A stretch of DNA of 64,000 nucleotides from Salipiger sp. CCB-MM3 (lineage in GTDB: Bacteria; Pseudomonadota; Alphaproteobacteria; Rhodobacterales; Rhodobacteraceae): contig NZ_CP014596.1 of the NCBI RefSeq assembly GCF_001687105.1, positions 1,301,001 through 1,365,000 of the forward strand, given 5' to 3'. The notes under the pieces were generated by a model. The model was not told the origin of the DNA. It did not search any database and worked only from the letters and a program-made list of their open reading frames with translations. Below, piece after piece: positions 7,160 to 49,707 of this stretch. Position 1 is the stretch's first letter; every line of letters starts with the position of its first letter. The position numbers and the translations under genes are program-made.

Positions 7160-7247
7160 GAATGCACAGCTCAAACACGGCTACGCTGAATAGGTGGGCA
7201 GAAAATATATATATGGAGGGGGCTATGCGGTCCGGCGCCCAAGCCCC

Positions 7248-8333
7248 TCAGGGGCCAAATCCCGGCCCCTCGGTGTCGGGCGCAAAGGCTTCGTCCCACA
7301 GCGAAAACAGCCGTGCCCGCGTGCTGCCGTCCAATGCCAGCAAGAGCGGCGGTGCCAGCGCGATCAGGCGCCGGGCGCTGGGAAGCAGGCTGGTCTCATC
7401 CGGGTCGCTCGGGGTGATCAGCCCAAGCTCCGACAGCATCGCCTGCGCCTCGGTGGTCAGCAAAAACTCGAGCAGCCGCTCGCCGCCTTCCACATGCGGT
7501 GCATTCTTGGGGATCATGTAACTGCGCGAGACGATCAGCGTGTAGTCCTCGGGCAGGATCACCCCCACCCTGCCCCCTTCGCCGTCGCGCGCGGCGGCGG
7601 CGGCATAGGACCCCAGCACATTGTAAGCGATGAGATACCGCCCTTTTGCCACGCCGTCGATGATTGCCGCCGAACAGCAGGTGGCGATGGCACCGACGCG
7701 AGAGAAGGCTTCGAGCATCGCGCCGAACGTGGTCGCCTCAAGGCTGTCGGCATGGGCAAAGAGATAACCAAGCCCTGAGGCCTCGATGTCATAGGTGGCG
7801 ATCTTTCCACGCAGCAGGTCGGGCCGGTTGCGCATCAGGTCGAGCAATTCGAAACGGCTGCGCGGCACATCTGATCCGCGAATGGCGCCGGTGTTGTAGA
7901 TGATCACCGCGGGCTCTTCGGTGATGCCCCAAAGCTCGTCGCGCCAGCGGCGCGAGGCGGGCAGCGCATCCGTGCGCGGCGACTGGTAGCGATGCGCGCA
8001 GGCGGCGTTGACCAGCCATGTCATCTGATGGGCGCCCGAGGAAAACACGGCGTCAGCCGCCGGGGCCGCTCCTTCGCAGGCCGCGCGGCTGTTGTCGAAT
8101 AGATTGTTCGAGCCCCATTGCTCATAGCGCACCGACAGATCCGGATTGCGCGCGGTAAAGCGCTCGATCACCGGGCGGATGATCGACAGATCGGTGGTCG
8201 AGCGCAGGACAAGCTCGGTGGGGGCACTGCCGATGACGTCGATCCGCTCCTGTGCGGCGGCGGCCAGTGGCACGACAAGGGGCGCCACCAGCGTGATCAG
8301 CGCCAGAGCGACGCGAGACAGCAAATCGATCAC
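7248..8333 (-). CDS. periplasmic extracellular solute-binding protein encoded with the TctD/TctE sensor system
   Basis: A 361-aa protein with an N-terminal signal peptide (hydrophobic residues about 6-22, ending AAAA-Q) and a type 2 periplasmic-binding fold reminiscent of iron/thiamine-type ABC binding proteins. The GTG start at 8333 overlaps the kinase stop by GTGA; the open frame extends upstream, but only inside the kinase gene. No ABC permease or ATPase accompanies it. Its partners are the kinase and response regulator in the same leftward operon, so it may serve as a ligand-presenting accessory to the kinase's periplasmic domain rather than as a transporter part. That role is inferred. 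Ligand unknown. Confidence 0.8.
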   Translation of the reverse strand: MIDLLSRVALALITLVAPLVVPLAAAAQERIDVIGSAPTELVLRSTTDLSIIRPVIERFTARNPDLSVRYEQWGSNNLFDNSRAACEGAAPAADAVFSSGAHQMTWLVNAACAHRYQSPRTDALPASRRWRDELWGITEEPAVIIYNTGAIRGSDVPRSRFELLDLMRNRPDLLRGKIATYDIEASGLGYLFAHADSLEATTFGAMLEAFSRVGAIATCCSAAIIDGVAKGRYLIAYNVLGSYAAAAARDGEGGRVGVILPEDYTLIVSRSYMIPKNAPHVEGGERLLEFLLTTEAQAMLSELGLITPSDPDETSLLPSARRLIALAPPLLLALDGSTRARLFSLWDEAFAPDTEGPGFGP

Positions 8334-11606: not shown

Positions 11607-11640
11607 GCGGCGGGCCCTTTCCTCCCAGAGGGCCCGCCGC
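11607..11640 (+). terminator. intra-operon hairpin after tctC
   Basis: A perfect 12-bp stem (11607-11618 with 11629-11640, GCGGCGGGCCCT) with a 10-nt loop and no U-tract lies between tctC and tctB. It probably stabilises the 3' end of the binding-protein message or partly attenuates read-through, raising TctC over TctAB. Confidence 0.6.
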
Positions 11641-37475: not shown

Positions 37476-37501
37476 GCTTCGGTCTTTCCTCAAATTCGGA
37501 T

Positions 37502-37541
37502 CGGGCCCGCGGCGGATAGGGAGGGAGACGCCGCGGGCCCG
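37502..37541 (-). terminator. intra-operon hairpin after dctP (locus 4)
   Basis: A perfect 13-bp stem CGGGCCCGCGGCG/CGCCGCGGGCCCG (37502-37514 with 37529-37541) with a 14-nt loop lies between dctP and hydA. No U-tract; an attenuating or mRNA-stabilising element. Confidence 0.6.
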
Positions 37542-37551
37542 AGGGGCCTGC

Positions 37552-48013: not shown

Positions 48014-48114
48014 TATGATAACTCAGCCGCCGAAAATTCGAAAAACGAATAGACGTGGGAAAGGCGAGTGATGCGCGCGACTTGGCCTTACCAAAATTGG
48101 CATTGCCAGAAACA

Positions 48115-48290
48115 GCAAAGGCCCATGGCGAGAGATATCTCGCTGGGTGTTTCAGGCCGTGTGCCGCTGCTCGGAAGGGTAAGGGGAACAGCGGCGATCC
48201 CAGGGAGGAGGAGAGGGATCGCCGCCAATTTCCGGAGCTCAGGGAGGAGGAGAGAGCCCCAGGAAACCCGATGACGCATCGCTGCGTCGT
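48115..48290 (-). ncRNA. candidate anti-Shine-Dalgarno small RNA of the 'cuckoo'/CcsR type
   Basis: Read on the minus strand, two stem-loops present the same 13-nt loop UCUCCUCCUCCCU containing CCUCCUCCC. Hairpin 1 pairs 48254-48262 with 48232-48240 (9 bp, two G-U; loop 48241-48253). Hairpin 2 pairs 48215-48225 with 48191-48201 (11 bp, perfect; loop 48202-48214). A 6-nt A/U-rich linker joins them. A third hairpin (48122-48147, bulged) followed by CUUUGCUGUUU could end the RNA. Paired hairpins with CCUCCUCCC loops define the alphaproteobacterial cuckoo RNAs (CcsR in Rhodobacter), which can mask ribosome-binding sites. Transcript ends are approximate; I see no DUF1127 gene upstream, as occurs beside Rhodobacter ccsR. 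Confidence 0.75.
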
Positions 48291-48981
48291 GTCTTGAAGT
48301 TAGCCAATGCTGCAGCGCCGCACAATGGTCAGCTTTGCAGACCTGTCTTGCCGTGGCGTCATAGCAACAGGCGCGCCGTGGCTCTGCTCAAAAGGTGAGC
48401 ATTGGGAGGGGCTTGGCGGCTGTCGGAGATACGAAATGCTTCAGCTTGAAAGCGCGACCCGAAACATTTGCTCATTGATTGAGCAAATGCGCCGAGCGCG
48501 CCATGGAATGACCTGAGCAATACAAAAATTGCTATGCGCTGGTTCCGCGCTGATGAACGATGCTTATCTGAAGGGGTATCCGGCCGCCCCAAACCCTCCC
48601 GAAGGGGCGACCGGATCGTTGCAGATGGCTACTCCTCCCAAAGCGCCATCATGCTGGTCGATCTGCTGAGCGCCTTGCGCCAGTGGGTCGACCGGAATGT
48701 CGTGTCGTGAACACAACACATGAAGAATTGGTGACTGTCCAGTGATTTCTCACCGGCAGACGTTGCGTCACAGCCTGCATTTTAGGCATGCGGCTGCCTG
48801 TGACAGCAAGCTGCGCACGCATAGCGCGAGCAAACCTCGCCTCCAGCAGCCCTGTTTATAGTCACGACAGCCGGCATTCCCTTTGACTGCAGGGGTTTGA
48901 AAGCTACGCGCCGGGGCCTATACCAAGGGCAAGCCGCGCTCAGCGCGCCCTACCCCCAAAGCCCTGCGAGGAGCCCGGACC
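48291..48981. other. gene-poor intergenic stretch
   Basis: No convincing gene. On the minus strand, TTGAGC (complement of 48385-48390) followed about 18 nt later by TTGCTAT is a possible promoter for the small RNA. On the + strand a 58-codon frame at 48534-48710 (MRWFRADERCLL..., ending VDRNVVS) has no Shine-Dalgarno and no family I recognise; it may be a gene remnant. GTCACAG (48767-48773) and CTGTGAC (48798-48804) form an inverted repeat upstream of the CinA-like gene. Base use is less GC-biased than in the flanking genes. Confidence 0.5.
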
Positions 48982-49707
48982 ATGCCCAATCCCACCGCCG
49001 CCATGCTGGTCATCGGAGATGAAATCCTCGCCGGTCGCACGCGCGATTCGAACATGCACTATCTGGCGCAGGAACTGACGAAGCACGGCATCGACCTGCG
49101 CGAGGCGCGGATGGTGGCGGACGATCATGATGCCATCGTCGCAGCGGTGACCACGCTCAAAGACGGCCATGATCACCTCTTCACCTCGGGCGGGATCGGC
49201 CCGACCCATGACGACATCACCGCCGACGCGGTGGCGGGTGCCTTTGGCGCGTCGATCGGCGTGCGTCAGGACGCTTATGATCTGTTGGCCGCGCATTACG
49301 AGCGGTCGGGACGCGAGTTCAACGAGGCGCGCCAGCGTATGGCACGCATCCCCGAGGGCGCGACGCTGATCGACAACCCGGTCTCCATCGCGCCCGGCTT
49401 CACCCTTGGCAATGTGCATGTGATGGCCGGTGTGCCGTCGGTGTTCGAGGCGATGGTGGCCTCGGTGCTGCCGAAGCTGACCGGCGGCGCGCCGCTGCTG
49501 TCGCAATCCCTGCGGATCGAACGCGGCGAAGGCGAGATCGCCGGACCGCTGGCGCAGCTCGCGGCGGATTTCCCTGACCTGTCGATCGGATCCTACCCAT
49601 TCCAGAAAGATGGGATCTACGGCGCGAACATCGTCATCCGTGGCTCTGAAGGCGCGCGCGTCGATGCGGCAATGACGCGCCTCGCCGCGCTCTTTCCCGC
49701 AAGCTGA
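48982..49707 (+). CDS. CinA-like molybdopterin-binding domain protein
   Basis: A 241-aa MoaB/MogA-fold protein of the competence/damage-inducible protein A N-terminal family. Motifs: AMLVIGDEILAGRTRDSN (about 8-25) and HLFTSGGIGPTHDDITADAVAGAFG (about 65-89). The C-terminal nicotinamide-nucleotide amidase domain of full-length CinA is absent, as in many alphaproteobacteria. GCGAGGAGC precedes the ATG. In E. coli-type relatives this domain hydrolyses ADP-ribose-like nucleotides; here the role is inferred. Confidence 0.87.
   Translation: MPNPTAAMLVIGDEILAGRTRDSNMHYLAQELTKHGIDLREARMVADDHDAIVAAVTTLKDGHDHLFTSGGIGPTHDDITADAVAGAFGASIGVRQDAYDLLAAHYERSGREFNEARQRMARIPEGATLIDNPVSIAPGFTLGNVHVMAGVPSVFEAMVASVLPKLTGGAPLLSQSLRIERGEGEIAGPLAQLAADFPDLSIGSYPFQKDGIYGANIVIRGSEGARVDAAMTRLAALFPAS

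Follow-up and report, generated by a model that had tools for sequence, protein, structure and literature searches.

A solitary cuckoo/CcsR-like RNA with twin anti-Shine-Dalgarno loops and a linked three-hairpin element in Salipiger sp. CCB-MM3

Described anti-Shine-Dalgarno RNAs and the locus

The closest described counterparts of the RNA reported here are CcsR1-4 (RSs0680a-d) of Rhodobacter sphaeroides, which are represented in Rfam by RF02791, accompany ccaF1/DUF1127 and comprise two hairpins with CCUCCUCCC loops (PMC10253847, PMC3927594). Their promoters contain bases of the RpoHI/RpoHII type, at positions whose importance for one or other of these sigma factors is reported in R. sphaeroides (PMC3441632). 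Co-transcription with a DUF1127 gene, Hfq binding, maturation by RNase E and heat and oxidative-stress induction further characterise CcsR1-4. In rhizobia, alpha-r14/NfeR1 (RF02344) carries three anti-Shine-Dalgarno (aSD) hairpins with loops on varied stems, occurs in several copies per genome and has a promoter with a conserved upstream stretch, with transporter mRNAs as the main predicted targets (PMC10746234, PMC7143759). Acting redundantly, its aSD loops bring about silencing at the ribosome-binding sites of target mRNAs (PMC10746234). AbcR1/2 (alpha-r15) likewise combine aSD motifs with transporter targets, two CU-rich motifs in unpaired regions being described (PMC7143759), and an RNA that binds another sRNA is exemplified in Rhodobacter by the StsR-UpsM sponge (PMC8307010).

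The locus considered here belongs to Salipiger sp. CCB-MM3 and lies in a 64,000-nt stretch of contig NZ_CP014596.1, referred to as the window, between a CoA-transferase family III gene (PF02515; 46744-47946, minus strand) and a CinA-like gene (PF00994, MoCF_biosynth; 48982-49707, plus strand), both recognised with Pfam. The RNA that it encodes, termed type 1, belongs to the CCUCCUCCC-loop ("cuckoo" or CcsR-like) group as a solitary copy. As in CcsR1-4, two hairpins carry such loops and the RpoHI/RpoHII-type promoter bases are present; unlike CcsR1-4, the window copy is solitary, lacks DUF1127 and scores under the Rfam cut-off; it also possesses an additional 5' hairpin and lies near a second element (type 2). 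With NfeR1 it shares varied stems below its aSD loops, several copies per genome, the conserved stretch upstream of the promoter and transporters among the predicted targets, whereas it has two aSD hairpins and a plain 5' hairpin where NfeR1 has three aSD hairpins; its twin identical loops set it apart from AbcR1/2. The minus strand from 48293 to 48190, with a tail to about 48170, is read as a trans-acting sRNA with its own promoter that is predicted to block Shine-Dalgarno (SD) sites and to lower many proteins, a reading given a probability of roughly 0.87.

Structure, strand and conservation of the type-1 RNA

The core of the RNA (48190-48293, minus strand) follows a model, R2, built from nine solitary type-1 copies, and is supported by Rfam CcsR1 and by covariation; the window copy scores 121.7 bits with R2 and is itself among those nine. 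A short 5' hairpin (GACGCA-GCGA-TGCGTC, 48273-48288) is followed by aSD hairpin 1 (48229-48266) and aSD hairpin 2 (48191-48225), which present the same 13-nt loop, UCUCCUCCUCCCU, at 48253-48241 and 48214-48202, respectively. The initial annotation had proposed two separate minus-strand stems with one shared loop, namely a perfect 11-bp stem at 48191-48225 and 9 bp with two G-U pairs at 48232-48262. Both stems are present, and the fold lengthens the latter to 48229-48266, where a bulged U separates 7 bp (GGGGCUC/GAGCUCC) from 5 bp (UUUCC/GGAAA). Overlooked by that annotation were the 5' hairpin and the three-hairpin element at 48571-48705. Folding of 48100-48310 gives a z score of -4.74 on the minus strand, with none of 200 shuffles as good, against -2.32 on the plus strand, with 3 of 200 as good. 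Forty dinucleotide shuffles of the window contained no twins of the aSD hairpins, and CTCCTCC hairpins with a stem of at least 9 bp averaged 0.175 per shuffled window.

The covariance-model search suggested earlier matches both hairpins to Rfam CcsR1 over the whole length of the model (E 2e-13), at a score of 58.1 bits that is below the curated gathering score of 65.3. No family is reported for the entire window at Rfam gathering thresholds. The ar14 family (RF02344) scores 47.4 bits on type 1 against a cut-off of 58.8, its third aSD hairpin being absent, and AbcR1/2 do not occur among the ten Rfam matches of the same search. A distinguishing property of the cuckoo group is the repetition of one CCUCCUCCC-type loop over unlike stems in two or more hairpins, of which the window copy has two.

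Relatives of the RNA share a second property of that group, the conservation of loops above compensated stems. In an alignment of 23 type-1 copies (22 distinct), which was fitted to the structure, 97.8% of cells are paired, and among the 22 distinct copies 17 of the 29 pairs show changes on both sides; none of 500 shuffles reaches the covariation score. An unfitted MAFFT alignment of nine copies still gives 10 of 29 such pairs (1 of 500 shuffles). Both-side changes occur in all three stems, including each of the six pairs of the 5' hairpin (22 distinct rows), while CTCCTCCTCCCT is invariant in both loops of all 23 copies. The wobbles settle the strand as minus, with 27 G-U cells and only 2 A-C cells, and the sense strand folds lower in 19 of the 23 copies. 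A 63-aa minus-strand open reading frame over type 1 has no Pfam match.

A different explanation, that the twin hairpins are palindromic mobile DNA of the REP or MITE kind rather than an RNA gene, would account for several dispersed copies per genome and for the occurrence of the type 1-type 2 pair in different neighbourhoods. It is scarcely credible in view of both-side stem changes beneath invariant loops, strand-biased wobbles and promoter-like bases at a fixed distance.

Promoter, tail and relation to the downstream gene

Upstream of the RNA, a promoter-like sequence (48297-48325, minus strand) comprises TTGTGC, a 17-nt spacer and TAACTT (48302-48297). Its key bases are conserved: in the 22 solitary copies counted (of 23 type-1 rows, L152 left out), TTG at -36 to -34 is found in all 22 when two expected positions are allowed, A-12 in 22, T-9 in 20 and T-13 in 19. 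Farther upstream lies a box, CAAGACAGGTCTGCA (48336-48350, minus strand), with the consensus CA-N3-C-N-G-N3-TGC, each letter of which is shared by 20 or more of the 22 solitary copies aligned. The key bases match published RpoHI/RpoHII determinants; the promoter may be used by either sigma factor, and expression of the RNA, with induction under stress, would be expected. The genome has one RpoH match above the curated cut-off (365 bits) and two below it (270 and 144 bits). At the other end, a pyrimidine-rich tail of 21 nt (48170-48190, minus strand) has a mean pyrimidine content of 77% over 22 copies and contains CTCC or TTCC in every one of them. No run of more than four T was found in the 61 nt beyond the tail in these copies. 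An inverted repeat at 48115-48145 was considered as a terminator and rejected, as by eye the downstream DNA of the other copies has no counterpart.

The hairpins lie on the same strand as the CoA-transferase gene, whose start codon is about 245 nt downstream, and they could be conceived as a cis-acting 5' leader of that gene. Relatives and flank conservation speak against this, and the explanation was set aside as very unlikely. Alloyangia pacifica, the source of the closest named CoA-transferase found (95%), and S. mangrovisoli have similar DNA just before the gene but no cuckoo RNA immediately next to it (in A. pacifica one occurs about 3.2 kb upstream), and R2 has no match in loci L045, L046, L053, L056 and L067. 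Among solitary copies the downstream DNA differs and conservation is confined to the upstream side of type 1, with a mean z of 5.67 upstream and 1.60 downstream in 11 members.

Copies in the genome and in the family

The initial annotation had reported a single copy, which holds for the window but not for the genome. In 5.5 Mb there are 12 CcsR1 matches at E <1e-8, the next match appearing only at 0.03; at the lax E value of this search, 12 of 14 control genomes match too. None of the 12 reaches the cut-off of 65.3, the units of the DUF1127-linked array included. Six of them form that array (C1:2409130-2409752), directly downstream of a DUF1127 gene, as in the ccaF1-CcsR1-4 locus (PMC10253847); the other six, the window copy among them, are solitary. 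The genome has six DUF1127 matches, none on the contig of the window and one adjoining the array; the earlier statement that no DUF1127 gene stands beside the window copy was right, and the gene that accompanies CcsR1-4 is absent there. The cuckoo/CcsR-like identity proposed in that annotation is backed by Rfam CcsR1, covariation, the conserved promoter and the presence of a canonical array elsewhere in this genome.

CcsR1 matches with an E value of 0.01 or lower occur in 126 of 149 family genomes, the present one included, compared with 1 of 14 control genomes, and they exceed the gathering score in 8 of the 149. R2 finds matches in all 20 genus genomes when array units are included. At a cut of 83 bits chosen here, the solitary class accounts for 57 of the R2 matches listed, in 17 of 20 genus genomes, and matches below 83 bits are, by eye, mostly in tight clusters. 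The solitary class, equipped with a private 5' hairpin and promoter, forms together with the type-2 element linked to it a variant of the cuckoo group. Neither was described among the papers listed by literature searches; the original cuckoo paper was outside their reach and may describe solitary copies.

Proposed action and predicted targets

In the proposed mechanism, the promoter with RpoHI/RpoHII-type key bases would start a transcript in which the short 5' hairpin precedes two stable hairpins, both presenting UCUCCUCCUCCCU in the loop, and the pyrimidine-rich tail. By analogy with the relatives CcsR1-4 and NfeR1, the loops would pair with SD sites of the GGGAGGAG type and block ribosome binding. 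The synthesis of many proteins would thereby be lowered at once, transporter binding proteins probably included.

There are 32 places with AGGGAGGAG-N2-9-ATG, compared with 2 for the reversed pattern. Thirty of the places had loci, yielding 29 distinct proteins that were scanned, and seven of these are solute-binding proteins (four DctP, two Peripla_BP_4, one Peripla_BP_6). A control SD set of 35 places gave 30 with loci and 26 proteins of at least 60 aa, of which 20 were scanned and 6 were not; none of the 20 is solute-binding (Fisher p 0.03 against 7 of 29), while two ABC-transporter membrane proteins and one outer-membrane efflux protein are among the control proteins. The enrichment of solute-binding proteins among predicted targets is weak and suggestive only, and strong SD sites may simply mark highly expressed genes.

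Elsewhere in the window, two further hairpins with aSD-like loops stand immediately after transporter binding-protein genes. One, at 11607-11640 (plus strand), has 12 bp and a loop containing TTCCTCCC and lies between a TctC binding-protein gene and tctB; the other, at 37501-37542 (minus strand), has 14 bp and the loop TCTCCCTCCCTATC and lies directly behind a DctP binding-protein gene, ahead of an amidohydrolase gene.

A linked three-hairpin element

The type-2 element occupies 48571-48705 and can be read on either strand, with hairpins at 48578-48616, 48624-48650 and about 48655-48695. Its plus strand shows CCCTCCC and CTCCTCCC loops and its minus strand GGGAGG(AG) and GGGAGGAG loops. The corresponding model, R1, scores 123.1 bits on the window copy, which was included in building it, and no cut-off of Rfam 15 is reached by the window copy or by any of the nine loci scanned. 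The stem words GGCGACC/GGTCGCC are, by eye, common to type 1 and type 2. The element is conserved in A. pacifica, and at E 0.01 or better R1 is found in 15 of 20 genus genomes, with 21 matches listed. Across the 149 sampled family genomes it was found in three, under stricter filters by which weak matches are lost, and BLASTN with type 2 matched five, of which only G000 and G088 were counted as having members. The matches at L141-L143 were judged by eye, from their folds, to be due to chance. The match in G058 (L149) was rejected as type 2 and taken as a plain aSD RNA because it has CTTCCTCCC/CCTCCTCCC loops and a T-run. At G088 C3:483466 (L151), a strong hairpin with a T-run comes after a single aSD-loop hairpin, and this may be a further type of sRNA.

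A solitary cuckoo RNA is found at a distance of 130-679 nt from 16 of the 21 listed matches, in differing neighbourhoods; L152, being equal to L044, was represented by the latter. The remaining matches are the genome's own C3 copy, with a type-1 RNA about 7 kb off, and those at G157 C2, G158 C23, G088 C3 and G165 C1, with none in the DNA compared. Assuming 12 copies per genome, a rough binomial for the linkage gives 5e-31, which is an order of magnitude only because related genomes are not independent. With respect to the aSD strand of both elements, nine pairs are on opposite strands and seven on the same strand. Flanking DNA is common within the group of the window, L044, L174 and L175 and within that of L169 and L170, and there is little similarity among other pairs outside the RNA elements themselves; these differences rest on comparison of flanking DNA, and the calls of open reading frames were mechanical.

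Several observations concern the surroundings of the pair. Between type 1 and type 2 in L169 (about 7235-7603) there is a 56-aa open reading frame with no Pfam match, in a stretch that is similar in L169-L172 and placed elsewhere in L173. A tRNA gene adjoins the type-2 element in two loci (L148 1223-1295; L158 1183-1255). In the own C3 locus (L145, 4433-11520), about 7 kb with several open reading frames separate the cuckoo RNA from type 2, and the spacing in L165 and L166 is 130-148 nt.

Type 2 was aligned in 17 rows, omitting L152 (bit score equal to L044), L149, L151, L164, L167, L168 and two matches on type-1 RNAs. No reading frame is kept overall because member lengths differ by non-multiples of three, and type 2 as a whole was dismissed as coding. 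All six members of 133 nt that were tested nevertheless keep one minus-strand frame open, and this subgroup may encode a small protein.

The functional strand of type 2

Two readings of type 2 were weighed. One, which is quite possible although it falls short of even odds, holds that the plus strand encodes a second aSD RNA with three hairpins, similar to ar14/NfeR1 and, in the window, divergent from the cuckoo gene, whose effect it would supplement additively. On this strand ar14 is the best Rfam family, its highest score among nine loci being 38.5 bits (E 6e-4) and that in the window 20.9 bits, and CCTCC, counted over the element, occurs two to five times in each of the 17 members. The best of these scores stays under the cut-off of 58.8, and type-2 loops vary above conserved hairpin-1 stems, in contrast to the reported pattern of ar14, where three hairpins carry identical aSD loops. 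Covariation is weak as well: 8 of 31 pairs have both-side changes, a number equalled in 216 of 500 shuffles, and the 17 both-side cells and the score of 0.149 are each equalled in 8 of 500.

The other reading is only slightly less probable and would complement the main one rather than replace it: the minus strand (about 48712-48560) would show SD-like loops, GGGAGG and GGGAGGAG, that bind the loops of the cuckoo RNA, so that the locus would hold a repressor RNA and its decoy. Minus-strand type-2 loops are predicted to be complementary to type-1 loops, support for the strand being divided. Five type-2 loops, treated as free strands without the hairpin constraint, are predicted to pair with the type-1 loop at -13.5 to -25.5 kcal/mol, which exceeds the strength of their pairing with the 16S tail; in the minus-strand fold, the GGGAGGAG of hairpin 2 is partly paired. 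The linkage to type 1 in 16 of 21 listed matches also fits a decoy. Flank conservation was compared in 12 of the 17 type-2 members (own C3, L157, L159, L165 and L166 left out) and 11 type-1 copies. The type-2 flank that is upstream on the minus-strand reading is the conserved one (mean z 5.66 against 2.28), with a matching bias towards the promoter side in type 1 (5.67 against 1.60); for an RNA on the aSD strand the conserved type-2 flank would fall on the 3' side. Just beyond the third hairpin, this flank contains a promoter-like two-box element, CTGGAC-N15-ATGTGT (48716-48742, minus strand), which was noticed by eye and then searched for. CTGGAC occurs in 14 of the 17 members and is followed 15 nt on by ATGTG in 13 and ATGTGT in 11; the element is absent in own C3, L165 and L166, and may be something other than a promoter. 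On the side of the aSD strand, TTG-N14-19-(T/C)ANNT, a promoter-like pair, is present in 9 of the 17.

Folding divides in a similar way. Hairpins 1 and 2 fold lower on the minus strand in 17 of 17 members each, and the whole element does so in 16 of 17, whereas in type 1 it is the aSD strand that has the lower energy, in 19 of 23 copies; raw energies favour the G/U-rich strand through composition. In hairpin 1, the aSD strand would have 20 A-C against 4 G-U cells, 12 of the 20 coming from one added column pair. Hairpin 3 points to the aSD strand, with 20 G-U against 11 A-C cells there and a lower energy in 10 of 17 members (higher in 6, one tie). Shuffle-corrected folds favour the SD-loop strand in own C3 and L166 (z -3.94 and -3.91 against -1.90 and -0.76), whereas dinucleotide z scores favour the aSD strand in the window (-3.96 against -3.07), L155, L158 and L165.

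SroC and GcvB form an sRNA sponge pair. As in StsR-UpsM, type 2 on its minus strand would bind another sRNA; it would differ from both of these systems in that SD-mimic loops face aSD loops and the pair is genetically linked. No case of a linked sponge pair of this kind was among the papers listed by literature searches. The solitary cuckoo RNA and the linked SD-mimic RNA may, tentatively, form a two-RNA device that acts by loop-loop pairing.

Implications for cuckoo RNAs in the genus

RNAs with aSD loops could in principle reach many mRNAs, which raises the question of how a cell limits them. The genus to which this strain belongs multiplies solitary cuckoo copies outside the DUF1127 array. 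Type 2, if transcribed as an SD mimic, would be a linked decoy, and otherwise a second type of aSD RNA. Should the former apply, broad SD-directed repression would gain a built-in threshold or off-switch, and the two RNAs would have stayed linked in Alloyangia and Salipiger relatives while their position, orientation and neighbours changed.
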